Assembly: GCF_001293525.1 (NCBI RefSeq)
Contig: NZ_BBYR01000069.1
Span: 1 to 64,000, forward strand
DNA: 64,000 bases
Direction of reading: 5' to 3'
From: Pseudideonella sakaiensis
GTDB lineage: Bacteria > Pseudomonadota > Gammaproteobacteria > Burkholderiales > Burkholderiaceae_C
Shown here: one piece after another, positions 17-22,137 of the stretch
How the letters are laid out: each line of letters begins with the position of its first letter
How positions within the stretch are numbered: position 1 is the stretch's first letter
Notes under the pieces: model-generated
Database searches by the model: none
What the model saw: the letters and a program-made list of their open reading frames with translations, nothing else
What the model was told of the DNA's origin: nothing
Position numbers and translations under genes: made by a program

Positions 17-1177
17 TCAGCGCGCCGGCCGCGGCGCGAGCGCCCGTTCGACCAGCGCCTGCGTGCGGGCCCGCTGGGCCGTGCGCCCGAACTCGGCCCG
101 CAGCGTCGCCGACTGCCGCTGCGCGTCGGCCGGCGCCAGCGGCGCCAGGTCCAGGCGCCCGAGGTCGCCGACCGGCAGGCCGCGCGCCTGCATCCAGGGC
201 CGGATCGGGTTCTCGCGCCGCAGGTGCAGCCGGGCGCCCAGCATCCCGCTGATCACGAGGTTGCCCAAGGCCTGCTGCCGCACGTGGTTCATCAGCACGT
301 GGCCGCAGGACTGCAGCAGCGCGATGTACTGCGCCACCGGCAGGTGCTCGCGCAGCGGCACGAAGGCCGCGCCGAAGGCCTGGCGTCCGGCGCGCTGCAC
401 CGCGTCGAGGTAGCTGCCGTCGGGGTCGCCGTAGGTCAGCGGCACGACCAGGCGGCGGCCGTCCAGGTCGTCGCGCGCGCGCAGCGCCGCGAAGGCCTCG
501 AGGTGGTTGTTCGCCGCTGTCGCGCTGTTGCCCACCAGCAGGTCCGGCCCGAGCGGCACCGGCCCCGGCGGCTGGCCGGGCAGGCTGAGGTCCTCCTCCA
601 CCGTGCCGTAGTTCCAGCGCAGGTAGTCCGCGCGCAGCGTGGGCTGGTGGCGCGCCACCATCGCGTGCTCGTTGTCGAGCACCGGGCTGAAGACGTCGAT
701 GCGCGCCAGCGCCTGCTGCTCCACATGGCTGGGCTTCGGGAAGGGGCGCGCCAGCGACAGCTGCGAGGCCCGCATGCGGCCGGGCTGCAGCGCGGGCTCG
801 CGCGGCAGCAGCCGGGCCAGCAGGGCCGCGGTCTGCGGCCCGAGCAGGCCCTCGGGGAAGGCGTCGGCCGCGAGGCCGCAGTAGTCGAAGCCCCAGCCGA
901 TCCAGACCACCTGCGGCCCGGGCGGCAGCTGCGGCAGCAGCAGCAGGTGCTCGCGCGGCAGGCTGTGCAGCACCACCGCGGCCACGTCGGGCTCGGCGGC
1001 GCGGCGCAGCCAGTCGGCGCGGGCGGTGCCGCGCACGCGCTCGCTGCGCAGCCAGCGCCAGGGCGGCTGCGCGTCCAGCAGCCACCATTCGTGCCGCCCG
1101 GGCGCGACCGCCTCGAACTCGCGCACGGCGCTGTCGACGAACTTGTCGTCGACCACCAGGTGCAGCAGGCGCTTCAT
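17..1177 (-). CDS. GT56 (WecF-like) 4-acetamido-4,6-dideoxy-galactose-type glycosyltransferase
   Basis: A 386-residue protein. It resembles the Fuc4NAc transferase family (GT56), which in enterobacteria adds a TDP-sugar to a lipid-linked saccharide. Supporting blocks are VWIGWGFDYCGLA near residue 95, LLVGNSATAANNH in the middle, and MNHVRQQALGNLVISG followed by LGARLHLRRENPI near the C-terminus. The ATG start at 1177 lies 2 bases after the TGA of the upstream glycosyltransferase, so the pair is probably co-translated. No other enterobacterial-common-antigen genes are seen here, so the acceptor is unknown. Surface glycan or flagellin is an inference from the neighbouring genes. Confidence 0.8.
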   Translation of the reverse strand: MKRLLHLVVDDKFVDSAVREFEAVAPGRHEWWLLDAQPPWRWLRSERVRGTARADWLRRAAEPDVAAVVLHSLPREHLLLLPQLPPGPQVVWIGWGFDYCGLAADAFPEGLLGPQTAALLARLLPREPALQPGRMRASQLSLARPFPKPSHVEQQALARIDVFSPVLDNEHAMVARHQPTLRADYLRWNYGTVEEDLSLPGQPPGPVPLGPDLLVGNSATAANNHLEAFAALRARDDLDGRRLVVPLTYGDPDGSYLDAVQRAGRQAFGAAFVPLREHLPVAQYIALLQSCGHVLMNHVRQQALGNLVISGMLGARLHLRRENPIRPWMQARGLPVGDLGRLDLAPLAPADAQRQSATLRAEFGRTAQRARTQALVERALAPRPAR

Positions 1178-1179
1178 CG

Positions 1180-2697
1180 TCACTCGGCGGCGTGCACGAC
1201 CAGGGCGCGGCCGCCGAGCGCACGCTCGACATAGGCCAGCTCCGGCGCCGCGCGCCGCCACAGCGCGAGCGCCTGCTGCAGCGTGCGCGGCTCGTCCGGC
1301 GCCCACAGGTTCAGCCGGAAGCGCGGCCCCAGCCGCGGCGCCACCATCGGCAGCGCCAGCACGGCGTCGGCCGACAGCTCGCCGCCCTCGCCGGCCGCGA
1401 CGATCACCGCATCGAGCTCGCCGAGCGCCTCCGGCAGCAGCGCCAGGTTCGGGAACTGGCCGGCGTGGCCCTCGAACTCGGCCGCCACGGCCGGCGCGTG
1501 GCGCACGTCGCCGGCCAGGCCGGCGCTGTCGAGCCTTGCGTAGAGGGCCATGGCACGCTCCGCGTCGCCGCTGACCACGGTGCAGCGGCCGCCCAGGCCC
1601 TGGACCAGCGCGGTCCAGGCCGCGCTCAGCGGGCCGGCGCCGATCTGCAGCACGCGCGGCGCGGCCGGGCCGCGCTGCAGCCACTGCCACCAGGTCCACA
1701 GCAGCGCCACCGGCGGTGGCGGCGCCTGGCCGTCCAGCGCGAGCGCGAGCAGGCCGGGGCAGCGGGCATGCAGTTCGGCGGCGGCCACGCGGCTCCACGT
1801 CTCCTCCGCGGCGGCGGGCGCCGGCGGCGTCGACACGGCCGCGGTGGCCGTGGCCACGGGCGGCGCGGCCCGCCCCGCCAGCGCCAGCAGCAGCCGCTGC
1901 TGCAGCGCCGCCAGCGCCGCATCGCCGGCGGCCTGCGGGCCGAACAGCCAGCGCCGGCAGGGCAGCGGCGGCTTGGCATCGACCACCTCGGCGCAGCGCT
2001 GCTGCTCGCGCGAGCTGAAGTTCACCGACTGCGGGTCGCGGTTGTGGTGCGACGCCGGGTTGCTGACGGTGTAGCGGTAGGCGCGCACCGGCAGGTGGCG
2101 GTAGCGGCGCGTCTGGTCCAGCACCGGCAGCGCGAGCGCCCGGTCGCAGGCCGCGCCGAGCCAGCGGCCGGTCTCGTCCTGGAAATAGCCGGCGTCGATG
2201 CCGTCCAGCAGCTCGGTGCGGAAGCTGAAGAAGTGGCTGGTCTTCCAGCCCTGCTGGCGCGGCGGCAGGAAGGGGTCGAGCGGGCCGCAGTGGCCGGGCT
2301 GGCCGGCGTCCGTCTCGTAGTTGGTCCAGACCACGTCCCAGCCGGCGGCGTACTCCGCCGCCAGCTCGGCCACGATGGTGGCGCTGAGCAGCTGGTCGTC
2401 GGCGTCGAGCACCGCGACGAACTCCCCGTGCGCCCGGTTGGCGCGCAGGTGGACGTGGGCGTTGTGCGCCTTGCCGAGCGGCTGCGGGTTGCGCACCAGG
2501 GTGTGGCGGCCGTGGAAGAACTGCGCCAGCGCCTCGCGCGCCAGCGCCTCGCTGCCGTCGTCCGAGGCGTCGTCCACGTAGAGCACGTGCAGACCCGGGT
2601 GGGTCTGCCAGGCGAGGCTTTCCAGCGCCGCACCGACGTAGCGCGCGCAGTTGCGCCCGTTCATGAAGACGAGGGCACGGGGCAGCGGGGCGTTCAT
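1180..2697 (-). CDS. family 2 glycosyltransferase with an extra C-terminal Rossmann-like domain
   Basis: 505 residues. The N-terminal half is a GT-A family 2 domain. It opens with a nucleotide-binding strand around ALVFMNGRNCARYV and then shows YVDDASDDGS near residue 40 and VLDADDQ near residue 95. Residues about 320-505 look like a separate alpha/beta domain, with a glycine-rich turn (VLQIGAGPLSAAW) and acidic strands resembling a SAM-methyltransferase fold, but no complete motif set is visible. A Pro/Ala-rich linker joins the halves. It is first in a minus-strand pair with the GT56 gene. Its sugar and acceptor cannot be told from sequence. Confidence 0.75.
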   Translation of the reverse strand: MNAPLPRALVFMNGRNCARYVGAALESLAWQTHPGLHVLYVDDASDDGSEALAREALAQFFHGRHTLVRNPQPLGKAHNAHVHLRANRAHGEFVAVLDADDQLLSATIVAELAAEYAAGWDVVWTNYETDAGQPGHCGPLDPFLPPRQQGWKTSHFFSFRTELLDGIDAGYFQDETGRWLGAACDRALALPVLDQTRRYRHLPVRAYRYTVSNPASHHNRDPQSVNFSSREQQRCAEVVDAKPPLPCRRWLFGPQAAGDAALAALQQRLLLALAGRAAPPVATATAAVSTPPAPAAAEETWSRVAAAELHARCPGLLALALDGQAPPPPVALLWTWWQWLQRGPAAPRVLQIGAGPLSAAWTALVQGLGGRCTVVSGDAERAMALYARLDSAGLAGDVRHAPAVAAEFEGHAGQFPNLALLPEALGELDAVIVAAGEGGELSADAVLALPMVAPRLGPRFRLNLWAPDEPRTLQQALALWRRAAPELAYVERALGGRALVVHAAE

Positions 2698-2792
2698 GGG
2701 ATCGGCGGCGCAGCGGCAGGCTCGGAAGCGGGCGCGGTGGCCCTCCTGCTGCGCACTCTAGGCGCCATGCGGCCGCCGCAGGGGCCGATCAG

Positions 2793-2827
2793 CCGGGCTT
2801 TGGCGCGTCATTTCGCGCCATGCCCGG
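2793..2827. promoter_or_regulatory. interrupted inverted repeat in a divergent intergenic region
   Basis: The 238-bp gap between the divergent glycosyltransferase (start 2697) and methyltransferase (start 2936) holds a long dyad. CCGGGC (2793-2798) pairs with GCCCGG (2822-2827), and TGGCGCG (2801-2807) pairs exactly with CGCGCCA (2814-2820) around a 6-base TCATTT loop. No U-tract follows, and it lies upstream of both genes. An operator or a 5' leader structure is therefore more likely than a terminator. No regulator can be named. Confidence 0.4.
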
Positions 2828-2935
2828 GTGGCCGGCCGCGGGATCATGGCGACCCGAAGCCCCCGGGCCGGTCGCCGTGCGCGCCGGCCCGCCGCCCGCG
2901 CCGCCGCTGCGGCCGCCCCTCTCCCAGGAGCCGAC

Positions 2936-3592
2936 GTGATCACCCAAGAAGAACTGGACGGCGTCATGCAGTTCGCCCGCCAGCAGGAGGCGCGCCAGCG
3001 CGAGGCGCGGGTGGCGGAGCTGCCGCGCGTGGCGCTGGCCGAGAAGCACATGCGCAACTGCCAGCTGCTGCTGAACCGCGCCCGCCTGCTGGAGCGCCTG
3101 CCGCGCTGGGCCACGGTGGCCGAGCTCGGCGTCGACCAGGGCCGCTTCAGCGAGCAGATCCTGAAGATCGCGCAGCCCGGCACGCTGCACCTGGTGGACC
3201 TCTGGGGCAGCGACCGCTACCACGGCGGCCTGTACGAATCCGCGCTGCAGCGCTTCGCGCCGGAGATCGACGCGGGCCGGGTGCACATCCACCGCAAGAG
3301 CTCGCTCGATGCCGCCGACGAGTTCGCCGACGGCCACTTCGACTGGGTCTACGTCGACACCGACCACTCCTACCAGACCACCGCGCTCGAGCTGCGCCGC
3401 TATGCGGCGAAGGTGAAGCCGGAGGGCCTGATCGCCGGCCACGACTACTGCATGGGCAACTGGGTCAGCAGCTACCGCTACGGCGTGATCGAGGCGGTGC
3501 ACGAGTTCTGCGTCGACGAGAACTGGGAGCTGGTCTACCTGACGCTGGACCCGCTGGAATCGCAGAGCTTCGCGATCCGCCGCATCCTGTGA
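2936..3592 (+). CDS. class I SAM-dependent methyltransferase (Methyltransf_24-like)
   Basis: 218 residues when started at the GTG at 2936, which has an AGGAG Shine-Dalgarno at 2926-2930 with 5-base spacing. The frame stays open upstream, but that stretch is low-complexity Arg/Ala and has no ribosome site. The SAM-binding motif I is VAELGVDQGRFS. Downstream LHLVDLWG and DWVYVDTDHSYQTT match small-molecule and sugar methyltransferases of the Methyltransf_24 type. It sits 43 bases before another methyltransferase inside a glycosyltransferase cluster, so methylation of a glycan is plausible but unproven. Confidence 0.75.
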   Translation: MITQEELDGVMQFARQQEARQREARVAELPRVALAEKHMRNCQLLLNRARLLERLPRWATVAELGVDQGRFSEQILKIAQPGTLHLVDLWGSDRYHGGLYESALQRFAPEIDAGRVHIHRKSSLDAADEFADGHFDWVYVDTDHSYQTTALELRRYAAKVKPEGLIAGHDYCMGNWVSSYRYGVIEAVHEFCVDENWELVYLTLDPLESQSFAIRRIL

Positions 3593-3635
3593 ACCACCGG
3601 CCCCTGCCGCCCTGCCCTCCCTCTGACCGGCCGCC

Positions 3636-4763
3636 ATGCACGCCCTCACCCTGAGCCCCAACCGCCCCGCTGCGCCGCTGCCGTCCGCGCCCGACCTGCC
3701 GGCGCGCCTGGCCGAACGCGAGGCCACGATCGACGGCTTGCAGCAGGCGCTGGCGCAGGCCGCCGCGCAGCTGCGCCAGGGCGGCGAACTGCTGCTGCAG
3801 ATGGCGCCGCTGGCGCAAGGGATCGACGCGCTGGCCACCGCGATCGCCGCGCTGCCGCTGGAGGCCGCGCAGCGCCGGCAGCTCGCCGGGCTGTTCGACG
3901 CGATGCAGGACGCTGCCGCCGCGGACCGCGTGCGGCGCGGGCCGGCTGGGGCGACCGCCGCGGCATCCGACGCGGACGCCGCCACGGCCGCGCTCCAGGC
4001 CTCGCGGGCCGCCGCACAGGCGGCGACCCCCCCGGCGCCGGCCCGGGCCCCGTCCCACCCGCGGCCCGCTGCGGCCGCCGACGACCGGCCGGCCTTCGCC
4101 CGCTGGTGCCCCTGCTGCCGCAGCGGCCACGCCGCCTTCGCCCCGTTCGGCACGCCCGCACGCGACGACGCGATGTGCCCCAGCTGCGGCTCGCTCGAGC
4201 GGCACCGGCTGATGCAGCTGTACTTCGAGCAGCGCACCGACCTGTTCGGCGAGCAGCCGCTGCGGGTGCTGCACTTCGCCCCCGAGGCCTGCTTCGTGCG
4301 CCAGCTCGACGGCAACCCGCGCATCGACTACGTGAGCGCCGACCTGAGCGCGCCGAACGCGAAGCACCGCATCGACATCACCGACATCCCCTTCGCCGAC
4401 GACAGCTTCGACGTGGTGATCTGCAGCCACGTGCTGGAGCACATCCCGGACGACCACCGCGCGATGCGCGAGCTGCGACGCGTGCTGCGCCCGAGCGGCT
4501 GGGCGCTGCTGCAGGTGCCGATCGACCCGGCGCTGCAGCTGACCTACGAGGACCCGTCGATCACCGACCCGCAGGAGCGCGAGCGCCTGTTCGGCCAGGT
4601 CGACCACGTGCGCTGGTACGGCCAGGACTACGCGGCCCGGCTGGCCGAGAACGGCTTCACGGTGCAGCGCGAGGACTTCCACGGCAGCCTGCCGGCGGCC
4701 GAGCGCGAGCGCCTCGGCCTGATGCCCGGCGAGGACATGTACCTGTGCACCAAGGCGGCGTGA
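3636..4763 (+). CDS. zinc-ribbon SAM-dependent methyltransferase with an N-terminal coiled-coil-like region
   Basis: 375 residues. The first 100 or so form a leucine/glutamine-rich helix that looks like a coiled coil, followed by an Ala/Pro linker. A zinc-ribbon-like segment (WCPCCRSGH, then MCPSCGSLERHR) precedes a Methyltransf_11 domain whose motif is FDVVICSHVLEHIPDD. LRVLHFAPE begins the SAM-binding domain. The stop codon overlaps the ATG of the next glycosyltransferase (ATGA at 4763). The CPxCGS-ERHR ribbon plus methyltransferase layout is common in polysaccharide clusters. The substrate is unknown. Confidence 0.75.
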   Translation: MHALTLSPNRPAAPLPSAPDLPARLAEREATIDGLQQALAQAAAQLRQGGELLLQMAPLAQGIDALATAIAALPLEAAQRRQLAGLFDAMQDAAAADRVRRGPAGATAAASDADAATAALQASRAAAQAATPPAPARAPSHPRPAAAADDRPAFARWCPCCRSGHAAFAPFGTPARDDAMCPSCGSLERHRLMQLYFEQRTDLFGEQPLRVLHFAPEACFVRQLDGNPRIDYVSADLSAPNAKHRIDITDIPFADDSFDVVICSHVLEHIPDDHRAMRELRRVLRPSGWALLQVPIDPALQLTYEDPSITDPQERERLFGQVDHVRWYGQDYAARLAENGFTVQREDFHGSLPAAERERLGLMPGEDMYLCTKAA

Positions 4764-5788
4764 TGGCCGCCGCGGCCGCCCCGCTGGTGAGCTTCGTCGT
4801 CGCGGCGTACAACGCCGAGCGCACGCTGCAGCGCACCCTCGGCTCGCTGGCCACCGACGTCGACCCGCAGCGCTGCGAGGTGCTGGTGATCGACGACGGC
4901 AGCACCGACGGCACCGCGCGCATCGCCGAGGGCTTCTGCCGCCTGAACCCGCAGTTCCGCCTGCTGCGCCAGGAGAACCGGGGCCTGGGCGCGGTGCGCA
5001 ACCGCGGCGTCGAGGAGGCGCGCGGCGACTACCTCGCGTTCTGCGATGCCGACGACGTCTTCCTGCCGGTCAACCACCTCGCATTCGCCGAGCGGCTGCA
5101 GGCCCAGCAGGCGGACCTGGGCATCGGCCTGGCCTTCTGCCTGACCGACAACGCCAGCGTCTGCGACTTCTGGGACCACGCGGTGGTGCGGCTGCTGGCG
5201 CGGCCCGAGGCCGCGCCGCTGCGTCCGGCGCTCAAGTTCCTGACCCAGCCGAGTGCCTGCAACAAGCTGTTCCGGCGCGAGCACGTGCTCGCGCACGGCA
5301 TCCGCTTCACGCCCGGCCGCCTGTTCGAGGACGTCGAGTTCACGACCGGCGCGCTGCTGCACACCGGGCGCGTGGCCTTCGAGGCGCTGCACCTCTTCAT
5401 CTACGACGTGCGGCGGCCCGGCTCGATCACCGGCTCGCGCTCGCCGCGCCGGATGGAGATCCTGGACAACCTGGTGCCGCTGATCGCGCGCGCCAACCGC
5501 TGCGCGCTGGACGGCGCCCAGTCCGTCTGCCTGCTGGTGGCGCTGCTGCGCACGGTGCTGTGGTGCCTGGACAACCTGCCGGACGAACTCGTGCCGGACT
5601 TCGGCCTGCGGCTGCTGACGACGGTGGCGCAGTGCCGCCTCGTGCTCCGGCCGGCGGACGCCGAGGCACTGGACCCGCTGATCACCGACCCCTGGGACCG
5701 GCGCGCCCTCGGCCTCGTGAAGGCCTTGTGGTTCTCGTCGCTGGATGCGCCGCAGCTGCTGCAGCTGCTGGCGCGGCTGCGCGGCTGA
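4763..5788 (+). CDS. family 2 glycosyltransferase
   Basis: 341 residues. A typical GT2 N-terminus (VSFVVAAYNAERTLQRTL) is followed by VLVIDDGSTDGTARIA and AFCDADDVFLPVN, which supply the nucleotide-sugar and metal-binding acidic residues. The ATG overlaps the TGA of the preceding methyltransferase by ATGA, so the two are probably translationally coupled. A downstream block, NKLFRREHVLAHGIRF then GRLFEDVEF, matches bacterial GT2 enzymes of capsule and LPS loci. The donor sugar is not predictable. Confidence 0.85.
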   Translation: MAAAAAPLVSFVVAAYNAERTLQRTLGSLATDVDPQRCEVLVIDDGSTDGTARIAEGFCRLNPQFRLLRQENRGLGAVRNRGVEEARGDYLAFCDADDVFLPVNHLAFAERLQAQQADLGIGLAFCLTDNASVCDFWDHAVVRLLARPEAAPLRPALKFLTQPSACNKLFRREHVLAHGIRFTPGRLFEDVEFTTGALLHTGRVAFEALHLFIYDVRRPGSITGSRSPRRMEILDNLVPLIARANRCALDGAQSVCLLVALLRTVLWCLDNLPDELVPDFGLRLLTTVAQCRLVLRPADAEALDPLITDPWDRRALGLVKALWFSSLDAPQLLQLLARLRG

Positions 5789-5890
5789 CGCCTCGGCTGC
5801 GGCGCGGGCCGGACGACACCGGGCCGGGCCCGGCAGGCTGCGCCGCCCGCGCGGCAGACCGCGCGTTCCCCGGCGCGCCGCCGGCGCGCG

Positions 5891-5922
5891 GCCCTCAGGC
5901 CCTCAGGCCGTCAGGCCGTCAG
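5891..5922. repeat. four tandem 8-bp units across the 3' end of a glycosyltransferase gene
   Basis: Two copies of GCCCTCAG are followed by two of GCCGTCAG without a break. The stop codon of the minus-strand glycosyltransferase (5911-5913) lies inside the tract. An 8-bp unit is not a multiple of three, so copy changes would move the reading frame at the extreme C-terminus. Each unit carries its own TGA on the minus strand, so most changes would have little effect. Confidence 0.6.
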
Positions 5923-7098
5923 CCACTGCCCCATGCGGGTGGCCCAGTTGTGGCGCGCCAGCAGCTCGGCGCGCGGACGCGCCGGCGTGGGCGCCGCCAG
6001 CCAGCCGCGCGCCTCGACGAGGGGCCGCAGCGCCGGTCGGTTCGCGTCGTAGCGCAGCAGCAGCTCGTCGGGCAGCGCGGCGGCCGCCAGGCCGCTGTTC
6101 TCGTTCGTGATGACCGGCACGCCCATCGCGGTGGCGGTGTAGACGCGGTCGTGCACGCCGCCGTCCCAGTTCGGGTCGAAGTTGACCAGCGCCGCGTAGT
6201 GCGGCAGCAGGCGGGCGATGTCGTCGTGGTTCACCTGGCCGACGTGGCGGAAGCCGGGCACCTCGCCGAGCAGCGCCTCCCAGCCGCTGCCGAAGAAGTC
6301 CACCGGCAGGCCGGCCAGGCTGCGCACGGCCTGCAGGCGGCGTTCGCGCTTGACCCAGGAGTCGGCGGCGATGAGCACCGGCAGCAGGTCGGCCTGCAGT
6401 GCCCGCAGCGGCGACAGGCCGAGCGCCTGCACGATGGCGCGTGCCGGCAGCGGATCGGCCTGCGGCGAGCGCAGCAGCTGGTCCAGGTGCTGGCGCCCGG
6501 CGCCGTCGAGGCGGCCCGCGAAGACCCGGCCGAGCAGGTCGGACAGGGTCTCGCCTGGCTGCGCGCCACCGAGCTCCGAGCCGACGGTGCCGATCACGCA
6601 CAGCCGCGGCTGCGGCACCACCGGCTCGGCCGGCGCCTCGCCGGCGGGCAGCGCGACGCTGGCGAAGCTGCCGAACGGCAGGTGGCCCCAGCGGACCGGC
6701 AGCGCCTCGCCGATCCAGTCGCGGTAGCCGGTCTCCGGCGACAGCAGGCCGAGCCGGCGGCTGCGCTGCGCGGCCGCGACGTACTCGCGCATCACCGGCA
6801 CGCGGGCCATGTCGTAGATCGGCGCGTCGAGCAGGAAGATGTCGAAGCGGCAGGGAAAGCGCTCCCACAGCGGCTGGCCGTCGAGGCGCACCGACAGCGG
6901 CAGCGGGCCGAGCGAGAGCACGCCGGCCACCTGGCCGGGCGCCAGCGCGGCGATCTCGGCCGCGTCGCGCGGCAGCGAGCAGGCGCGCGCGGGCACGCCC
7001 TGGCAGGCGAGGCCGGCGGCCATGCGCTCGGCCACGCTCTCGACGGCGCGCAAGGGGTGGTCGAAGGCCAGGACCAAAAAGACGGGGGCAGCGGACAT
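5911..7098 (-). CDS. CgeB-like glycosyltransferase (GT-B fold)
   Basis: 395 residues. The C-terminal third resembles the spore-maturation CgeB/GT1-like domain: VDFFGSGWEALLGEVPGF, then HVGQVNHDDIARLLPHYAAL, then NFDPNWDGGVHDRVYTATAM and GVPVITNENSG. The last part includes the region that usually binds the nucleotide sugar. The N-terminal half is less conserved (FDIFLLDAPIYDM). It lies 36 bases downstream of the OGT-like gene on the same strand, with which it may form an operon. Function as a glycosyltransferase is likely; the sugar and acceptor are unknown. Confidence 0.7.
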   Translation of the reverse strand: MSAAPVFLVLAFDHPLRAVESVAERMAAGLACQGVPARACSLPRDAAEIAALAPGQVAGVLSLGPLPLSVRLDGQPLWERFPCRFDIFLLDAPIYDMARVPVMREYVAAAQRSRRLGLLSPETGYRDWIGEALPVRWGHLPFGSFASVALPAGEAPAEPVVPQPRLCVIGTVGSELGGAQPGETLSDLLGRVFAGRLDGAGRQHLDQLLRSPQADPLPARAIVQALGLSPLRALQADLLPVLIAADSWVKRERRLQAVRSLAGLPVDFFGSGWEALLGEVPGFRHVGQVNHDDIARLLPHYAALVNFDPNWDGGVHDRVYTATAMGVPVITNENSGLAAAALPDELLLRYDANRPALRPLVEARGWLAAPTPARPRAELLARHNWATRMGQWLTA

Positions 7099-7134
7099 GG
7101 GGGCTCGCTCGGTGGAAGGGGGGTGGGCGGCCGC

Positions 7135-9099
7135 TCAGGCGGCCGCGACCGGCGCGTCCAGCGCCGGCAGATGGTCGGGGGGCAGGCCGGCGACGGCGCG
7201 GGCCCACATGCGGTCGTACAGGGCCTCGAGGTCGCGCGCGAAACGCACGCCGTCGAACAACGGGCCATGGTCACGGCCGGCCGCCACGCGGGCCCGCAGC
7301 GCGGCGCGCGCGGCCGGGTCGGCGGCGAGCGCCTGCACGCGCTGCAGGTAGGCCTCGTCGCTGTCGCAGACGAGCTCCGGCAGGCCGAGGGTCGTCAGCA
7401 GGCTGGCGGCCACGCGCTGGGCGAAGGGCTCGCCGATGCGCGTCACCACCGGCACGCCGACCCACAGCGCCTCGCCGGCGGTGGTGTGGGCGTTGCACGG
7501 CCAGGCATCGAGGTAGAGGTCGGCACAGGCCAGGCGGCGCAGGTGCTCGTCGACGGGCAGCAGCGGCGCGAACACCAGCCGCTCGGGGTCGATGCCCCGC
7601 GCCTCGGCGGCGGCCCGCAACCGGGCCTCGACGTTGACGTTCCAGCGCAGCAGCCACAGCACCGCGTCGGGCAGCCGGCGCAGCAGCTCGCACCAGGTGT
7701 CGAAGACCTCCTCGGAGATCTTGTACGACTGGTGGAAGACGCACAGCAGCAGCTTGTCGGCCGGCGCGCCCCATTCGGCGCGGTCGGACGCGGCGACCTG
7801 CAGGCGCCGCGCGTCGTTCGGCTGGTAGCAGTGCGGCAGCTGGGCGATCTTCTCGCTGTAGTGGTCGGCGTGCGCCAGCGGAGTGACCACCGGGTCGCCG
7901 ATGAAGTAGTCGATGCAGTCGGCGCCGCTGGTGCCCGGGAAGCCGAGCCAGCTGACTTGCAGCGGCGCCGGCCGGTGCGCGACGGCGCGCATCGGCGCGT
8001 CGAAGGTCGCGCCCTTGAGGTCGACCAGGATGTCGATGCGGGCCTCGCGGATGCGCTCGGCGATCGCGCGCTGGGTCGCGCCGCGCAGTTCGACGAAGTG
8101 CTCGCAGGCGGCCTCGATGCGCGCGCGCATCGGGCTGCCGTCGTTCGGTCCGGCGGAGAACAGGCTGACCTCGTAGCGCCCGCGGTCGTGCGACTCCAGC
8201 ATCTGCGCCATCAGCTGGCTGGTGGCGTGCTGGTGGAAATCCGACGAGAGGTAGCCGATGCGCAGGCGCCCCGGATGCGCCCGCGCGCGCTGCAGCGGCA
8301 GCGGCACGACCTGCGCGGCGATGTGGCGCGCATGGTGGCGTGCCGCCTTCAGCTGGCGCCGCGGGTCGGTGTCGAGCACGGCGGCGGTGAAGGGCCCGGT
8401 CTCCATCGGCCGGCCCTCGGGCAGCGCATCGATGCGCCGGCACCACTCGGCCATCTCCTCGGCCGCCTGCGGCCAGCGGCCCGCCTCGCGCTCGTAGAAG
8501 ACCAGCTGGGCGCGGGCGGCCAGGTCGGCCTCGTCGAGGCCGAGCAGCAGCGCGGTGCGCACGCACTCGGCCGCCTCGGCCTTCATGCCCTTGTCCTTGA
8601 AGGCGATGCCCAGGCGGTAGTGCGTCGGCGCATCGTCCATCTTGTGGCCGAGCGCCTGCAGGAAGGCGGCGATCGCCTCGTCGTGGCGGCCGCAGCGGTG
8701 CTGCGCGACGCCCAGCGACAGCCAGTGCGCATGGTCGCGCGGCAGTTCGGCCGGCATCTCCGCCAGGCAGCGTGCGGCCTCGTCCGCGCGGCCGCGCTCG
8801 AGCAGCGCATGCGATTCCAGCGTGTAGGCCAGCGCGGTCGACGGGCGCCGGCCGCGCAGGCGCGTGGTGCGCTGCAGCGCGTGGTCCGAGCGGCCCGCGC
8901 GGATCAGCGCATGGGCCGCGGCCAGGCCGTAGGCCTCGTCGGCGGCGAGCTCGTAGGCCTGGTCGAAGGCGGCGGCGGCATCGGCCCAGCGGCCGGCGTC
9001 GCCGCGCGCGCGCCCTTCGGCCCAGCGCTCGTAGGCGCGACGCAGGCGCGGCGCGGCGCCGGGGGGCGGGGCGACGGGGGTGGGGAGGACCAGGGCCAT
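7135..9099 (-). CDS. SPINDLY/O-GlcNAc-transferase family glycosyltransferase with TPR repeats (GT41)
   Basis: 654 residues. About 230 N-terminal residues form TPR-like helix pairs (for example WADAAAAFDQAYELAADEA). The GT41 catalytic region follows: IGYLSSDFHQHATSQLMAQM, then PLQVSWLGFPGTSGADCIDY, YSEKIAQLPHCYQPND, VFHQSYKISEEV with the expected lysine, and NAHTTAGEALWVGVPVVT. GT41 enzymes transfer a sugar from a nucleotide donor to protein Ser/Thr in the cytoplasm. Closeness to two flagellin genes makes flagellin the obvious candidate substrate, but that is inference. Confidence 0.85.
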   Translation of the reverse strand: MALVLPTPVAPPPGAAPRLRRAYERWAEGRARGDAGRWADAAAAFDQAYELAADEAYGLAAAHALIRAGRSDHALQRTTRLRGRRPSTALAYTLESHALLERGRADEAARCLAEMPAELPRDHAHWLSLGVAQHRCGRHDEAIAAFLQALGHKMDDAPTHYRLGIAFKDKGMKAEAAECVRTALLLGLDEADLAARAQLVFYEREAGRWPQAAEEMAEWCRRIDALPEGRPMETGPFTAAVLDTDPRRQLKAARHHARHIAAQVVPLPLQRARAHPGRLRIGYLSSDFHQHATSQLMAQMLESHDRGRYEVSLFSAGPNDGSPMRARIEAACEHFVELRGATQRAIAERIREARIDILVDLKGATFDAPMRAVAHRPAPLQVSWLGFPGTSGADCIDYFIGDPVVTPLAHADHYSEKIAQLPHCYQPNDARRLQVAASDRAEWGAPADKLLLCVFHQSYKISEEVFDTWCELLRRLPDAVLWLLRWNVNVEARLRAAAEARGIDPERLVFAPLLPVDEHLRRLACADLYLDAWPCNAHTTAGEALWVGVPVVTRIGEPFAQRVAASLLTTLGLPELVCDSDEAYLQRVQALAADPAARAALRARVAAGRDHGPLFDGVRFARDLEALYDRMWARAVAGLPPDHLPALDAPVAAA

Positions 9100-9227
9100 G
9101 GTGCGGCGCCCGCGACGGCGGGCGGAACGAGCGGATGCGTCAGCCTAAGGCGGGGCGCCAGCGGCGATGCCCCGAAAAGCGCCACCGCGGCGGGGCAGTT
9201 GCCGGGCCGGGGCACGCCGGTCCTGCG

Positions 9228-9266
9228 CGGCCGTCCCGGGCGGCCGTCCCGGGCGGCCGTCCTGCG
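9228..9266. repeat. 13-bp tandem repeat in the intergenic region between glycosyltransferase genes
   Basis: Three consecutive 13-bp units beginning CGGCCGTCC lie between the OGT-like gene (start 9099) and the next minus-strand glycosyltransferase (end 9303). The first two units are identical; the third differs at its 3' end. A looser GCGCGCCCG repetition follows to about 9290. No promoter or gene was recognised in this 203-bp gap. Confidence 0.55.
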
Positions 9267-9302
9267 CGCCCGCCCTGCGCGCCCGTTCCGCGCGCGGTCC
9301 CG

Positions 9303-10373
9303 TCAGCGCGCAGGCGGGATCCCCGCCGCGGCCCGCCACGCGGCCGCGCGCTCGCGCCAGGTGGCGGCGGCCGCGGCCTGGCCGAGGCTCTCGTGGAAGG
9401 CCGCCAGGTTGTGCGCCGCGAGGTAGCTGCCGCGGCCCTGGACGCTGTCGGGCAGCAGCGGCCGCTCGCCGATCTCGATCGCGCGCAGCCAGGCCGCCTC
9501 GATCATCGGCAGGCGTTCCAGCGCGCGGGCCGGGTCGGCCAGCGCCGCATCGAGCAGCAGGTCGCCGAGCACGAAATGGAAATCGGGCGACTCGGCCCAG
9601 TGCGGCTGCTCGTCGGCCGCCAGCGCCAGCGCCTCGGCATGGCGGCCCAGGCGCTTCAGCGTGACCATCCAGCGCAGGACCAGGTCGTGGCGCCAGGCCG
9701 CGCCGGCGGCGACGCCGCGCGCCGCGGCGGCGTAGTGTGGTGCCGCGCCGGCGACGTCGCCGTCGACCTCGTGGTCCTTGCCGAGCTGGTACTGCAGGTA
9801 GGCATCGCCGGGCGCCTCGGCCAGCGCCTGCACGAGCAGGCGGCGGTTGCGCCCGCGCTTGGCCGCGTGCTGCTGCGGCAGGTAGCCGTCGTGGCCGATG
9901 CGCAGCGGCAGCCGGCGCCGCGGCCCGGACCACACCGGCTGCTCGTGGATGCGGCCCGCATAGCCGACGCCGGCCGGCAGCAGCCGCGGCAGCCAGCTCG
10001 GCGCCAGCAGCCGGCCGCCGCGTCCGTCGTCGATCTCGCTGTCCACCGGGACCAGGCCCACGAACCCGGGCGCGGTGTCACGCAGCGCCGCCAGGCACTC
10101 GGCCCCGCCGGCGATCCACTCGTCGGCGTCCAGCACCAGCCGCCACGGGGCCGCGCTGAGCGCCAGCGCGCGGTTGCGCGCCGCCGCGAAGTCGTCCTCC
10201 CACGCGAAGGTGGCGACGCGCGCGCCGGCGGCCTGCGCGATGGCCACCGTGTCGTCGGTGGAGCCGGTGTCGAGCACGCACAGCTCGTCGACCCAGGGCC
10301 GTGCGCTGTCCAGGCAGCGCGCCAGGCAGCGCGACTCGTTGCGCACGATCATCACCAGGGCCAGCGGATACAT
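9303..10373 (-). CDS. family 2 glycosyltransferase (SunS-like) with a C-terminal helical repeat region
   Basis: 356 residues. The N-terminus LALVMIVRNESRCLARCL, then VLDTGSTDDTVAIA and LVLDADEWI, is the hallmark of the GT2 subgroup that contains SunS-type protein glycosyltransferases. The acidic DADEW motif would bind the metal and nucleotide sugar. From about residue 190 the sequence becomes helical and TPR-like (YLQYQLGKDHEVDGD). It is divergent from fliC1 across a 376-bp intergenic region. With the GT41 gene it makes two enzymes here whose relatives act on proteins, which supports a flagellin-modification role. Confidence 0.75.
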   Translation of the reverse strand: MYPLALVMIVRNESRCLARCLDSARPWVDELCVLDTGSTDDTVAIAQAAGARVATFAWEDDFAAARNRALALSAAPWRLVLDADEWIAGGAECLAALRDTAPGFVGLVPVDSEIDDGRGGRLLAPSWLPRLLPAGVGYAGRIHEQPVWSGPRRRLPLRIGHDGYLPQQHAAKRGRNRRLLVQALAEAPGDAYLQYQLGKDHEVDGDVAGAAPHYAAAARGVAAGAAWRHDLVLRWMVTLKRLGRHAEALALAADEQPHWAESPDFHFVLGDLLLDAALADPARALERLPMIEAAWLRAIEIGERPLLPDSVQGRGSYLAAHNLAAFHESLGQAAAAATWRERAAAWRAAAGIPPAR

Positions 10374-10511: not shown

Positions 10512-10539
10512 TCAAGTTCCGCGAAACCGCCTCCGATAA
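10512..10539 (+). promoter_or_regulatory. sigma-28-like promoter for fliC1 in a 376-bp leader region
   Basis: TCAAG at 10512-10516 is followed after 16 bases (counted from TCAA) by TCCGATAA at 10532-10539, close to the flagellar sigma factor FliA consensus (TAAA, 15 bases, GCCGATAA). It lies about 210 bases before the fliC1 ATG, leaving a long 5' leader. The leader ends in a short CCGGC/GCCGG hairpin near 10710 and an AAGGAG ribosome site at 10735-10740. The rest of the 10374-10749 gap shows no gene. Confidence 0.65.
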
Positions 10540-10749: not shown

Positions 10750-11556
10750 ATGGCCGCTACGATCAATACCAACGTCCAGTCGATCAACGCCCAGCGCAAC
10801 CTGTCGGCTTCGCAGGGCTCGCTGTCCACCTCGATGCAGCGCCTGTCGTCGGGCCTGCGGATCAACTCCGCGAAGGACGATGCCGCCGGCCTGGCCATCG
10901 CCGACCGCATGAACGCCCAGGTGCGCGGCATCAACGTCGCGATCCGCAACGCCAACGACGGCATCTCGCTGGCGCAGACCGCCGAAGGCGCGCTGTCCAC
11001 CGTCACCGACGTGCTGCAGCGCATGCGTGAACTCGCGGTGCAGGCCCAGAACGGCAGCAACGGCACCTCCGACCGCGCCAACCTCGACACCGAGTTCCAG
11101 CAGCTGAACGAGGAAATCACCCGCATCGCCGGCCAGACCAAGTTCAACGGCACCGCGATCGTCGGCGCCAGCGCCGGCGCCCAGACCTTCCAGGTCGGCG
11201 CCAACAACGGCGACACGCTGACCATCACGACCAGCCAGGTCTCGGCGCTGTCCGGCAACAGCATCACCTCGGCGTCGAACGCCTCGACGGCGCTGGCCGC
11301 GATCGACACCAAGCTGGACTCGATCACGACCGACCGTGCGACCTACGGCGCGATGATGAACCGCTTCCAGTTCACCATCCAGAACCTGCAGACCACGAAC
11401 GAGAACCAGACGGCCGCCCGCGGCCGCATCATGGACACCGACTTCGCGGTGGAAACCGCCAACCTGTCGCGTGCGCAGATCCTGCAGCAGGCCGGCACGG
11501 CGATGGTGGCGCAGGCCAACCAGCTGCCGCAGCAGGTGCTGTCGCTGCTGCGCTGA
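10750..11556 (+). CDS. fliC: flagellin 1
   Basis: 268 residues, the subunit of the flagellar filament. The conserved D0/D1 N-terminus is present (INTNVQSINAQRNL, then SSGLRINSAKDDAAGLAIAD), as is the C-terminus (AVETANLSRAQILQQAGTAM, ending LPQQVLSLLR). The middle is only about 80 residues, so the D2/D3 surface domains are minimal. That middle is rich in Ser/Thr and could offer O-glycosylation sites. The start has AAGGAG 9 bases upstream and a sigma-28-like promoter. It is closely similar to the next gene, with long identical DNA stretches. Confidence 0.97.
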   Translation: MAATINTNVQSINAQRNLSASQGSLSTSMQRLSSGLRINSAKDDAAGLAIADRMNAQVRGINVAIRNANDGISLAQTAEGALSTVTDVLQRMRELAVQAQNGSNGTSDRANLDTEFQQLNEEITRIAGQTKFNGTAIVGASAGAQTFQVGANNGDTLTITTSQVSALSGNSITSASNASTALAAIDTKLDSITTDRATYGAMMNRFQFTIQNLQTTNENQTAARGRIMDTDFAVETANLSRAQILQQAGTAMVAQANQLPQQVLSLLR

Positions 11557-11808: not shown

Positions 11809-12615
11809 ATGGCGCAAACCATCAACACGAATGTCGCGTCGCTGAACGCTCAGCGCAACCTGTCGATGTCGCAGAACTCGCTGTCGACCTCGATGCAGCG
11901 GCTGTCCTCCGGCCTGCGGGTCAACTCCGCGAAGGACGACGCCGCCGGCCTGGCCATCGCCGACCGCATGAACGCCCAGGTGCGCGGCATCAACGTCGCG
12001 ATCCGCAACGCCAACGACGGCATCTCGCTGGCACAGACGGCCGAAGGCGCGCTGTCCACCGTCACCGACGTGCTGCAGCGCATGCGTGAGCTCGCGGTGC
12101 AGGCCCAGAACGGCAGCAACGGCACCTCCGACCGCGCCAACCTCGACGCCGAGTACCAGCAGCTGAACGAGGAAATCACCCGGATCGCCACGCAGACCAA
12201 GTTCAACGGCACCGCGATCGTCGGCGTCAGCGCCGGTGGCACCACCTTCCAGGTCGGCGCCAACAACGGCGACACGCTGACCATCACGACCAGCCAGGTC
12301 ACCTCGGTCGGCGGGGGCATCACCACCGCCTCCGCCGCGTCGACCGCGCTGGCCGCGATCGACACCAAGCTCGACGCGATCACCACCGACCGCGCGAACT
12401 ACGGTGCGCTGATGAACCGCTTCCAGTTCGCGATCCAGAACCTGGCGACCACCAGCGAGAACCAGAGCGCCGCCCGCGGCCGCATCATGGACGCCGACTT
12501 CGCGGTGGAAACCGCCAACCTGTCGCGTGCCCAGATCCTGCAGCAGGCCGGCACCGCGATGGTCACGCAGGCGAACCAGCTGCCGCAGCAGGTGCTGTCG
12601 CTGCTCAAGGGCTGA
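11809..12615 (+). CDS. fliC: flagellin 2
   Basis: 268 residues, the same length as flagellin 1. The conserved ends are almost identical, and the centre differs mainly by scattered substitutions. The ATG at 11809 was chosen because the alignment with flagellin 1 starts there and AGAGG lies 7 bases upstream; an in-frame GTG further upstream (11782) was rejected. No sigma-28 box was found between the fliC1 terminator and this start, so its expression control may differ from that of fliC1. The shared stretches around codons 45-110 suggest recent duplication or gene conversion. Confidence 0.97.
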   Translation: MAQTINTNVASLNAQRNLSMSQNSLSTSMQRLSSGLRVNSAKDDAAGLAIADRMNAQVRGINVAIRNANDGISLAQTAEGALSTVTDVLQRMRELAVQAQNGSNGTSDRANLDAEYQQLNEEITRIATQTKFNGTAIVGVSAGGTTFQVGANNGDTLTITTSQVTSVGGGITTASAASTALAAIDTKLDAITTDRANYGALMNRFQFAIQNLATTSENQSAARGRIMDADFAVETANLSRAQILQQAGTAMVTQANQLPQQVLSLLKG

Positions 12616-12631: not shown

Positions 12632-12658
12632 TCAAGTCCGGCCCCGCCGCGCCGATAC
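12632..12658 (+). promoter_or_regulatory. sigma-28-like promoter for fliD
   Basis: TCAA at 12632-12635, 15 bases, then GCCGATAC at 12651-12658. Spacing and -10 sequence match the FliA consensus very well. It lies 17 bases after the fliC2 stop and about 95 bases before the fliD ATG, so the filament-cap gene can be transcribed independently of flagellin. Confidence 0.8.
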
Positions 12659-12751: not shown

Positions 12752-14167
12752 ATGGCAGGCACCATCAGCTCCGCCGGCATCGGCAGTGGTCTCGACGTCG
12801 CGACCATCGTGTCGCAGCTGATGTCGATCGAGAAACAGCCGCTGAAGCAGCTGCAGACGCAGGCCAGCACGACCCAGTCGCAGATCTCCGAGGTCGGCAA
12901 GATCTCGAGCGCGCTGTCCACCTTGCGCGAGCTGTCGACCAAGCTCGCCTCCAGCACCTTCTGGGCGCAGACCACCGCGAAATCCAGCGACGCCGCGGTC
13001 TCGATCACCAACGACGGCACGGCCAAGCCGGCGACCTATTCGGTCGCCGTCAGCTCGCTCGCGTCGGCGCAGGCCGTCGTCGGCACGCAGCGCTTCGCCG
13101 CCACCACCGACACGGTCGGCAGCGGCACGCTGAGCATCGCGCTCGGCAGCTGGAGCGCCGACGGCAACAGCTTCAACGGCCGCACGCCGGCGTCCAGCGT
13201 CGACGTGGTGATCGAGGACGGCGACACGCTCGCGACGCTGCGCGACAAGATCAACGCCTCCGGCGGCGGCGTCACCGCGTCGATCCTGACCGACAGCACC
13301 GGCTCGCGCCTGGTGATGCGCTCGAAGGACACCGGCGCGGCCAACGGCTTCTCGGTCACGGTGGCCGGCGGCAGCGGCGGGGTGGCCAACCTGGGCTACG
13401 CGCCCGGCGCCAAGAGCGCCACCCTCACCTCCAGCGCCGCCGACAGCGTCGCGACGATCGACGGCATCGAGGTGCGCTCGGCCAGCAAGCAGCTCACCAA
13501 CGTGCTGGACGGCGTCTCGCTGACGCTGAACGCGGTCACGACCACGCCGGTGACGGCCACCGTCAGCAGCGACACCGACGCGATCAAGAAGGCCATCACC
13601 GACTTCGCCGCCGCCTACACCAGCGTCGCGACGCTGATCGCCAACGACACCAAGTACGACGCCGGCAGCAAGAAGGCCGGCGTGCTGCAGGGCGATTCGC
13701 TGATCACCGGCGCGCTGATGCGCATGCGCTCGACGCTGGGCAACGGCACCACCGCGAGCACGGTGTTCGCGCGCCTGTCCGACATCGGGCTGGAGCAGCA
13801 GCGCGACGGCTCGATCAAGGTGAACGACACCAAGCTCACGAACGCGGTCGCCAACGTCGACCAGCTGCGCGTGGCCTTCTCCAACCTGGACTCGGCCAAC
13901 CCCAGCAACAGCGGCTTCGCCAAGCAGTTCCAGAAGCTGGCCGACAGCCTGATCGGCGCCACCGGCAGCATCACCCAGCGCAGCACCGCGCTGAAGGACA
14001 AGCTGGAGCGCAACCAGGACCGCCAGGACGCGCTGAACGATCGCCTCGCGCGGGTGGAGGCGCGCCTGACCGCGCAGTACGGCGCGCTCGACACCAAGGT
14101 CAGCTCGGCCAACGCGCTGCAGAGCTACGTGTCGCAGCAGATCACGCAGTGGAACAAGGCGACCTGA
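12752..14167 (+). CDS. fliD: flagellar filament cap protein FliD (HAP2)
   Basis: 471 residues. FliD forms the cap that folds exported flagellin at the filament tip. Seen here are the N-terminal FliD signature (ISSAGIGSGLDVATIVSQLM), a coiled-coil-prone stretch after it, Ser/Thr-rich middle domains, and a C-terminal coiled coil (LNDRLARVEARLTAQYGALD) ending in SQQITQWNKAT. The ATG at 12752 has GAGG about 10 bases upstream. The frame is open further upstream but lacks conservation. It has its own sigma-28 promoter. Confidence 0.95.
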   Translation: MAGTISSAGIGSGLDVATIVSQLMSIEKQPLKQLQTQASTTQSQISEVGKISSALSTLRELSTKLASSTFWAQTTAKSSDAAVSITNDGTAKPATYSVAVSSLASAQAVVGTQRFAATTDTVGSGTLSIALGSWSADGNSFNGRTPASSVDVVIEDGDTLATLRDKINASGGGVTASILTDSTGSRLVMRSKDTGAANGFSVTVAGGSGGVANLGYAPGAKSATLTSSAADSVATIDGIEVRSASKQLTNVLDGVSLTLNAVTTTPVTATVSSDTDAIKKAITDFAAAYTSVATLIANDTKYDAGSKKAGVLQGDSLITGALMRMRSTLGNGTTASTVFARLSDIGLEQQRDGSIKVNDTKLTNAVANVDQLRVAFSNLDSANPSNSGFAKQFQKLADSLIGATGSITQRSTALKDKLERNQDRQDALNDRLARVEARLTAQYGALDTKVSSANALQSYVSQQITQWNKAT

Positions 14168-16418: not shown

Positions 16419-16632
16419 GGCGGGCTCCGCAGCGAGGCTCCGCAGGCCGCCGGCGATGCCGCACGGCCCGATGCGGGATGCTGCGCATTCTGGGTGCGGC
16501 GGCCCGCCGCGGGGCGCCGAATAGCGGCGGCTTCCCCGGGCTGTTCACCGCTTGCCGGCGGGGTGGGATCCGAATAATCCGGTCACGGGCCGATGCCGCC
16601 CGCACCGCCTCCCCGGACCCCGCCCCTGCCCC
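16419..16632. promoter_or_regulatory. divergent fliE/fliF control region
   Basis: This 214-bp gap must carry promoters for fliE (minus) and the long fliF operon (plus). A weak sigma-70-like candidate for fliF is TTGCCG (16552-16557), 17 bases, then TAATCC (16575-16580). No clear sigma-54 (TGGCAC...TTGC) or sigma-28 element was found by eye. The segment GGTGCGGCGGCCCGCCGCGG near 16495 is strongly self-complementary. Confidence 0.3.
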
Positions 16633-21589: not shown

Positions 21590-22054
21590 ATGAGCCCGCT
21601 GCAACCCCTGCTGGCGCTGCTGGCGCTGGCCGAGAAGGAGCGCGACGCGTCGCTCGCCGCCCACCAGCAGGCCCAGCGCGCCGCCGAGGCGGCGCAGGCC
21701 CAGTCGCAGCAGCTGCTCGACTACCGCAGCGACTACGAACAGCGCTGGACCCACCAGTTCCAGACCCAGGGGACGATGCCGGTGCTGCACGCCTACCAGG
21801 GCTTCATGGGCCGCCTCGGCCAGGCCGTCACCCACCAGGACCGCATCGTCGCCCAGGCTGGCGACCAGCTGGCACGGGCCGCCCAGGTGCTGCGCGAGCA
21901 CGAGCTGCGCGTCGCCTCGGTGCGCAAGCTGATCGAGCGCCGCCAGCAGGAGCTCGGCCTGGTGGCCGAGCGCCGCGAGCAGAAGGCCACCGACGAGTTC
22001 GCCGCCCGCGCCGGCTGGAACCGCAGCAGCGGCTTCGGCGCCGACGCGCACTGA
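21590..22054 (+). CDS. fliJ: flagellar export chaperone/stalk protein FliJ
   Basis: 154 residues, almost entirely helical and Gln/Arg/Ala-rich, as expected for FliJ, a gamma-subunit-like coiled coil in the centre of the FliI ring. Typical blocks are LLALAEKERDASLAAHQQAQ and the C-terminal RRQQELGLVAERREQKATDE. The ATG at 21590 has AGAGGAA 7 bases upstream. Divergent in sequence as a family; the position after fliI supports the call. Confidence 0.9.
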   Translation: MSPLQPLLALLALAEKERDASLAAHQQAQRAAEAAQAQSQQLLDYRSDYEQRWTHQFQTQGTMPVLHAYQGFMGRLGQAVTHQDRIVAQAGDQLARAAQVLREHELRVASVRKLIERRQQELGLVAERREQKATDEFAARAGWNRSSGFGADAH

Positions 22055-22137
22055 GCGGCGCGGGCCGCCCCCGGCCACGCCCCCGTTCCCATTCCCGTCG
22101 ACATCCACGCCCCGCGTCCGAACCCTTGCCGCTCCCG

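Follow-up and report, generated by a model that had tools for sequence, protein, structure and literature searches.

A candidate flagellin O-glycosylation island with neighbouring OGT-like and GmaR/SunS-like transferases in Pseudideonella sakaiensis

Introduction

Do the genes for sugar transfer and methylation that border the twin flagellin genes of Pseudideonella sakaiensis modify these flagellins, or do they belong to another glycan pathway? The question is raised by a stretch of 64,000 nucleotides (hereafter the window), which starts at base 1 of contig NZ_BBYR01000069.1, named C69 here, in a genome of 6.1 Mb rated 100% complete. Its positions 17-10373 carry eight genes, called A to H in their order along the window (Table 1), upstream of a flagellar cluster that opens with two flagellin genes. 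We conclude with good confidence that the locus is a flagellin O-glycosylation island, in which a GT41 glycosyltransferase (G) and a GmaR/SunS-like glycosyltransferase (H), both with tetratricopeptide repeat (TPR)-type domains, form the core, while the remaining genes are lineage-specific cargo. This reading is based on the gene content, the flagellin adjacency of G and H, the predicted folds and the aligned active-site residues.

The eight genes are intact and all of them pass the Pfam cut-off, as the original prediction of eight sugar-transfer or methylation genes upstream of two flagellins had it; six encode glycosyltransferases (A, B, E, F, G and H). They do not form one run, but three blocks of alternating orientation (A and B; C, D and E; F, G and H). 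D and E overlap by one base, and the last block is divergent from the flagellin genes, with 376 bp between H and fliC1. Only 16 bases separate the end of A from the end of the contig, and because the window starts at the first base of the contig, the island cannot be followed farther to the left. According to Pfam, no nucleotide-sugar biosynthesis gene is present among the eight, the contig ending right there.

Flagellin adjacency of the core transferases

GT41 matches were found in 70 of 360 genomes searched across the class, the window's genome included. Genome contigs yielded 79 GT41 loci, from the best 80 of 220 confirmed stretches. A quick maximum-likelihood tree of GT41s has 80 rows, some of them long-branched or poorly filled; this tree and the residue tally given below leave out frames of 400 residues or less. 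The nearest GT41 relatives of G place the bacterium in Burkholderiales, near Piscinibacter/Rhizobacter. One Burkholderiales group, with a support of 100 in the Shimodaira-Hasegawa-like approximate likelihood ratio test (SH-aLRT), unites 32 flagellin-adjacent rows, including that of the window, and 11 others. Over the whole tree the adjacency label changes 7 times, compared with a mean of 25.2 changes after shuffling and with 0 of 500 shuffles as low, near-copies among the rows favouring such clustering. The window's G falls in a clade of 17 rows, of which 11 are flagellin-adjacent; the contigs of the other six (L004, L010, L011, L014, L016 and L019) end before the flagellin position. H and G lie side by side, upstream of a flagellin gene and divergent from it, in ten related loci (L005, L006, L007, L008, L009, L012, L013, L015, L017 and L025), and in two Aquabacterium loci (L018 and L024) H is found about 10 kb off, on the far side of G.

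A second comparison, which overlaps with the first set of loci and is not independent of it, started from fliD. The 143 genomes of the family with FliD yielded 140 neighbourhoods after leaving out G003, G041 and the window's own genome (G000), and 98 after excluding 42 in which the sequence upstream of fliD was shorter than 10 kb or a fliC start was not recognised. Among these 98, a GT41 of at least 250 bits is present in the 20-kb fliD neighbourhood in 39, and one of at least 600 bits in 28. In 26 loci the GT41 is at most 6.5 kb upstream of fliD. For the 39 loci, uniform placement would give about 0.5-1 of 98, assuming some 1-2 GT41s per genome, a chance figure that is somewhat low because no more than about six candidates per genome were scored in the underlying counts. 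A GmaR-like H is encoded in 20 of the 98 loci, 13 of which carry G as well. Homologues of H (1e-35) were retrieved in 30 of 200 genomes, the window's included, and in 23 of them fliD is no more than about 15 kb away. In these family searches, run for A, B, C, F and H, the first pass scored a limited number of candidates per genome, and the fliD distance of A, C, F and H homologues was judged by eye from match coordinates. The adjacency of G and H to flagellin is conserved beyond chance in relatives, and the cross-genome comparison now supports a role that had originally been deduced from position.

In Leptothrix sp. C29 (L042), the genes follow one another as fliC-fliD-GT41-fliS, and our own frame calls leave 42 and 102 bp on the two sides of the GT41 gene. 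L042, L049, L048 and L054 (Leptothrix/Sphaerotilus) all have the GT41 gene embedded in the flagellar run, with fliD on one side and fliS on the other. In several loci of the family (L083, L095, L122, L124, L141, L150 and others), frames of about 170-250 residues just upstream of the first fliC give weak matches to the GT41 profile (28-43 bits); perhaps TPR-only proteins, they constitute a recurrent flagellin neighbour, mostly where a full GT41 is not close.

The TPR-GT41 transferase G

G matches the Glyco_transf_41 family (PF13844) with 307.5 bits, for a cut-off of 25, as well as TPR, which bears out its earlier assignment to the O-GlcNAc transferase (OGT) type; no methyltransferase domain was found in it with Pfam. 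Among solved chains, it matches OGT down to 1e-85, XcOGT at 4e-81 and SPINDLY (SPY) at 2e-50. Its residues K460 and H291 align with K842 and H558 of OGT (K665 and H495 of SPY). K665 of SPY is described as required (PMC9715652). At the H498 position, G has Phe and SPINDLY Leu. A second, distant GT41, sharing 33% identity, is encoded elsewhere in the same genome (G000:C35:67613-68737).

With regard to the donor, one position has been argued to set donor size in GT41 enzymes, namely C917 in human OGT, Y744 in SPINDLY, Y463 in XcOGT and Y419 in TtOGT, a Cys there leaving room for GlcNAc (PMC9715652). The equivalent in G, within a gap-free stretch of the alignment, is C535. For this assignment the chain numbering was taken as ten ahead of the published one, with K842 for anchor; the XcOGT match, in which 631 ends opposite 559, would, if ungapped, pair residue 463 with 535, in agreement with this. 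The 32 flagellin-adjacent rows have Cys in 29 cases, Val in 2 and Tyr in 1, and the 48 rows without flagellin in the locus have Tyr in 24, Val in 15, Cys in 8 and Ile in 1. Of these eight Cys rows, seven (L004, L010, L011, L014, L016, L019 and L022) fall within the Burkholderiales group described above, on contigs ending shortly upstream of G; the remaining one is L069. In the family loci, the Cys is found in 32 of 40 GT41s located from 7.5 kb upstream to 3.5 kb downstream of fliD, and in none of the 11 located farther away, one of which has a gap there. Once the seven truncated rows are removed from the 43-row group, the Cys is carried by 29 of 32 adjacent and 0 of 4 non-adjacent rows (p=0.0006). 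This contrast is weak: in L034, fliD and fliS are found at a distance of about 8 kb, L035 and L066 come from short ends of contigs, and the p-value does not account for kinship.

Cys535 predicts a uridine diphosphate-linked N-acetylhexosamine (UDP-HexNAc) donor for G, from a single position seen largely in one lineage. A broader proposal is that the flagellin-linked GT41s of this Burkholderiales lineage, with their Cys equivalent to C917, are genuine bacterial counterparts of human OGT that transfer O-GlcNAc (HexNAc), dedicated to flagellin and working beside a GmaR/SunS-like, TPR-bearing partner as a dual-initiator system; we put it forward tentatively, and would not give it even chances. A different GT41, of lower score and without the Cys mark, was observed about 9-12 kb upstream of fliD in L139, L185, L189 and L205, where the flagellins are longer (about 400-490 residues).

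The GmaR/SunS-like transferase H

H is a protein of 356 residues with a Pfam match to Glycos_transf_2. Its best solved relative in sequence is Listeria GmaR (1.6e-18, and 2.2e-30 with an 18-member profile), followed by a SunS-like protein (3.8e-17). The AlphaFold model of H, with a mean predicted local distance difference test (pLDDT) score of 88.7, comprises a GT-A domain and then helical pairs. In VIA-align comparisons this fold resembles that of the S-glycosyltransferases SunS and ThuS, which act on peptides, with Z 23-24 over 265-298 residues, and its tail resembles TPR proteins (Z about 15-18). The link to GmaR rests on sequence because its structure is missing from the 50 matches listed in either fold search. 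The protein had been predicted to be a SunS-like GT2; the fold is in keeping with this, but the score against the SunS family (TIGR04195), 61.7 bits, is far below the curated cut-off of 350, and GmaR is the nearer solved sequence. From its model, we regard H as having the SunS/ThuS fold, extended by a TPR-type tail.

GmaR transfers GlcNAc to flagellin (PMC9638930) and, like H, has a glycosyltransferase domain followed by TPR-type repeats. Its additional role as an anti-repressor of flagellar genes is taken up below.

The proposed cargo genes

The other six genes differ in how closely their relatives are tied to flagellin. A matches Glyco_transf_56 (PF07429) with 61 bits (cut-off 25) over residues 213-355, that is, in its C-terminal half only, and scores 49-100 bits against the WecF equivalogs of NCBIfam, far under their cut-offs of 457-754. 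No solved relatives of A or F were found. F matches PF13524 with 43 bits, and its homologues (1e-10) in three other family genomes all share a contig with fliD, at distances of about 5, 12 and 20 kb. B has a 51-bit match to PF00535 and a C-terminal part without Pfam match; its model was built from 3 sequences and has a mean pLDDT of 48, and all 50 Foldseek matches listed for it are methyltransferases. Because of this low confidence, only the methyltransferase-like C-terminus is used, and with caution: B seems to carry a C-terminal class I methyltransferase-like domain. Leptothrix sp. C29 (L042) and Sphaerotilus sulfidivorans (L049) have homologues of B, 43% identical, at their fliC loci.

C matches PF13578 (50 bits) and E matches PF00535 (102 bits). 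The C-terminal half of D matches PF08241 (61 bits), and we read the Cys-rich stretch ahead of this methyltransferase domain as zinc-ribbon-like. Matches to D of about 100-130 bits occur in five flagellin neighbourhoods (L018, L024, L125, L159 and L217), which is weak evidence because the family is broad.

In five of the loci with H and G side by side (L005, L006, L009, L012 and L025), 20 of the 42 predicted genes beyond G were scanned, and none of the genes beyond G there matched A to F at 1e-6. L005 has two methyltransferases, a GT4-type glycosyltransferase, an aminotransferase, a chemotaxis receptor and one unmatched gene; L006 has a methyltransferase, a GHMP kinase, a DegT aminotransferase, a nucleotidyltransferase, an epimerase and a glycosyltransferase; L012 has three methyltransferases and a protein of beta-lactamase fold; L009 has two GGDEF proteins and one resembling histidine kinases; and L025 has one gene without match. 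A gene set resembling that of L006 (GHMP kinase, nucleotidyltransferase, epimerase and DegT) is held by L224. The cargo differs by lineage and varies strongly between related islands. Given the placement of homologues and this variation of the cargo, we regard G and H as a core and F and B as plausible partners, whereas the membership of A, C and E is unproven.

Alternative readings

Several results weigh against a flagellin O-glycosylation island of this composition. No GT41 of 250 bits is near fliD in 59 of the 98 measurable loci, and H and G are often apart: H is present in 20 loci and G in 39, but only 13 have both. Seven of the 30 H homologues are not placed near fliD, five being on contigs without fliD, one lying 1.6 Mb away (G057) and one belonging to a genome without FliD match (G037). 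All 80 GT41 rows, flagellin-adjacent or otherwise, retain K460 and H291, which therefore mark GT41 and not flagellin. Homologues of A (1e-10) and C (1e-15) were found in four and two other family genomes, respectively, and in none of them on the fliD contig; for B, a search of the other 199 family genomes gave no match at 1e-25. Lastly, the Ser/Thr content of short flagellins is 0.286 beside such transferases and 0.269 without them (p=0.19). This comparison covers 27 genomes in which a strong transferase match is nearby and 24 in which there is none, 4 genomes with only weak or distant matches being set aside.

A narrower reading of the locus is that only H, G and F, perhaps with B and D, modify flagellin, A, C and E being passengers of a glycan pathway that continues past the contig end. 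B, D, F, G and H indeed have homologues linked to flagellin, unlike A and C as far as their homologues were found, and the genes form three separate orientation blocks with the contig ending so close to A. The lack of such links for A and C is, however, weak evidence, because island cargo varies strongly. We consider this narrower composition a serious possibility, albeit one on the doubtful side of even. It is improbable, in our view, that the whole locus is a surface polysaccharide cluster, for exopolysaccharide or O-antigen, with the GT2, GT56-like and methyltransferase genes acting in that pathway and the proximity of fliC due to chance. The GT56/WecF-type domain of A, from a family known from lipid-linked polysaccharide synthesis, and the location of A and C homologues off the fliD contig would fit such a cluster, but H and G keep their adjacency to fliC over many genomes, the F homologues found share the contig of fliD, and G and H each combine TPR-type domains with protein- or peptide-acting relatives. 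That H is a dual protein which also acts as an anti-repressor of flagellar genes can practically be set aside: its best solved sequence relative is GmaR, yet GmaR has 637 residues, with linker and antirepressor domains behind its TPRs (PMC9638930), domains for which H, reduced to a glycosyltransferase domain and a short helical-repeat tail, is too short, and GmaR-type regulation by H is rejected for this reason.

The flagellin O-glycosylation island thus remains the preferred reading. In the scheme that we infer from it, which includes the cytosolic site, the acceptor, the donor, the order of steps and the target of methylation, G and H would bind nascent FliC1 and FliC2 through their TPR-type domains in the cytosol, before export, and place the first sugar(s) on Ser/Thr residues exposed in the short centre of the flagellins, G probably using UDP-HexNAc, as its OGT-like pocket suggests. 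Since loci with only one of the two exist, each of them may be able to initiate. The glycan would then be extended by F and B, with A and E as less certain participants, and methylated by C, D and the tail of B, and these cargo glycosyltransferases and methyltransferases would complete it ahead of export. With regard to the nature of the sugar, no NeuB match was obtained at an E-value of 0.001 in this genome, the Caulobacter control giving one, which argues against a pseudaminic/legionaminic route. The Maf domain (PF01973) was not matched either, but the four controls that matched are archaeal and the sensitivity for bacterial Maf is unproven.

The original prediction of a flagellin O-glycosylation system has thus been strengthened by the conserved adjacency of G and H, the presence of F and B relatives in flagellin neighbourhoods and the resemblance of H to GmaR, but not for A and C, which lack flagellin links elsewhere. 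Because their homologues are off the fliD contig, the eight genes to which a multi-sugar, possibly methylated glycan had been attributed should be seen as an upper bound, and the multi-sugar methylated glycan itself as an inference.

Flagellins and neighbouring features

FliC1 and FliC2 each match Flagellin_N and Flagellin_C. The short flagellin centre (residues 138-181) had been described as rich in Ser/Thr, which proved correct (34%, compared with 14-18% in the flanks). As a sign of glycosylation, this feature was discarded, being not diagnostic and not detectably different between the groups compared above. Flagellins of less than 330 residues show no detectable association with a nearby GT41 when the threshold is set at 250 bits (p=0.22); they are found in 22 of 28 loci with a GT41 of at least 600 bits and 33 of 70 others (p=0.006), and in 19 of 20 loci with a GmaR-like H and 36 of 78 others (p=7e-5), two associations that are uncorrected for kinship and that we do not claim.

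Upstream of fliC1, a possible sigma-28-type promoter was recognised by eye. Scans with a strict sigma-28 consensus did not report this site (10512..10539), and the exact pattern is unmatched in the window; a looser pattern gave a single site in the window, with 3 mismatches, at 12632-12657 between fliC2 and fliD, and 3 of 100 shuffles of the window yield such a site. Pfam matches further downstream include FliD, FliS, FliT, YcgR, FliG, a FliI-type ATPase, FliK and FliM, and the frame 16593-18206 is without Pfam match. The 2-kb step of highest G+C in the window (22001-24000, 84.7%) is mostly inside a 715-residue frame with a FliK-type hook-length domain. An anti-phage defence role was also considered for the island and rejected, none of the eight proteins matching PADLOC at 1e-5.

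Table 1. Features of the island and of the adjacent flagellin region, with positions in the window
Feature	Positions	Strand	Basis
A: GT56-like glycosyltransferase (WecF family C-terminal match)	17..1177	-	PF07429
B: GT2 with C-terminal class I methyltransferase-like domain, probable fusion	1180..2697	-	PF00535; low-confidence model
C: class I methyltransferase (Methyltransf_24)	2846..3592	+	PF13578
D: methyltransferase (Methyltransf_11) behind Cys-rich, zinc-ribbon-like stretch	3636..4763	+	PF08241
E: GT2 glycosyltransferase	4763..5788	+	PF00535
F: GT-B glycosyltransferase (Glyco_trans_1_2)	5911..7098	-	PF13524
G: TPR and GT41, OGT-like protein O-glycosyltransferase	7135..9099	-	PF13844
H: SunS/GmaR-like GT2 (GT-A) with C-terminal TPR-type helical repeats	9303..10373	-	sequence and AlphaFold model
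Possible sigma-28-type promoter before fliC1	10512..10539	+	by eye, spacing one base long
FliC1 flagellin, 268 residues, presumed acceptor	10750..11556	+	PF00669, PF00700
FliC2 flagellin, 268 residues, presumed acceptor	11809..12615	+	PF00669, PF00700
FliD filament cap	12752..14167	+	PF02465, PF07195

Relation to known systems and significance

GT41-bearing flagellin glycosylation islands are already known in Enterobacteriaceae, from the study of De Maayer and Cowan (2016; PMC4875605). In that study, a GT41 with a SPINDLY-type domain is present in 198 island-bearing strains, all GT41-11 enzymes but eight also carry a methyltransferase domain, and each island has one to three glycosyltransferases of a single family (PMC4875605). 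In these islands, like in the present one, glycosyltransferases and methyltransferases are encoded beside flagellin genes. They are, however, located between fliC and fliA, whereas the island described here is upstream of twin fliC genes, in a relative of Piscinibacter/Rhizobacter, and holds a GT41 and a GT2 side by side among six glycosyltransferases, its GT41 being without a detected methyltransferase domain, unlike most GT41-11 enzymes of Enterobacteriaceae. In Caulobacter crescentus, the N-terminal TPR of FlmG binds flagellin and its C-terminal domain is of the GT-B type (PMC7591256). By this description G can be likened to FlmG, with the difference that FlmG works in the NeuB/pseudaminic acid pathway (PMC7591256) and that the genome studied here lacks a NeuB match. 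As for human OGT, XcOGT and Arabidopsis SPINDLY, they share with G the GT41 family, the TPRs and the equivalents of K842 and H558, and G sides with human OGT at the C917 position, where SPINDLY and XcOGT have Tyr.

Among the matches listed in a search of the open-licence PMC literature by title and start of the abstract, no pair of a TPR-GT41 and a GmaR/SunS-like transferase beside flagellin was found for Sphaerotilaceae/Burkholderiales. Within that literature, the pairing of a GmaR/SunS-like with an OGT-like TPR transferase appears to be new, and so does the Cys mark.

Work on bacterial GT41 enzymes reports no O-GlcNAc activity of XcOGT on bacterial lysates or short peptides, one substrate in Arabidopsis lysate being modified, and no O-GlcNAc activity of TtOGT in vitro (PMC9715652). 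A bacterial GT41 group that has the Cys of the human enzyme and lies beside its likely acceptor provides a concrete enzyme-substrate pair for the question of OGT-type O-GlcNAcylation in bacteria, and the model proposed here is one in which two TPR-bearing transferases may share a single export substrate.

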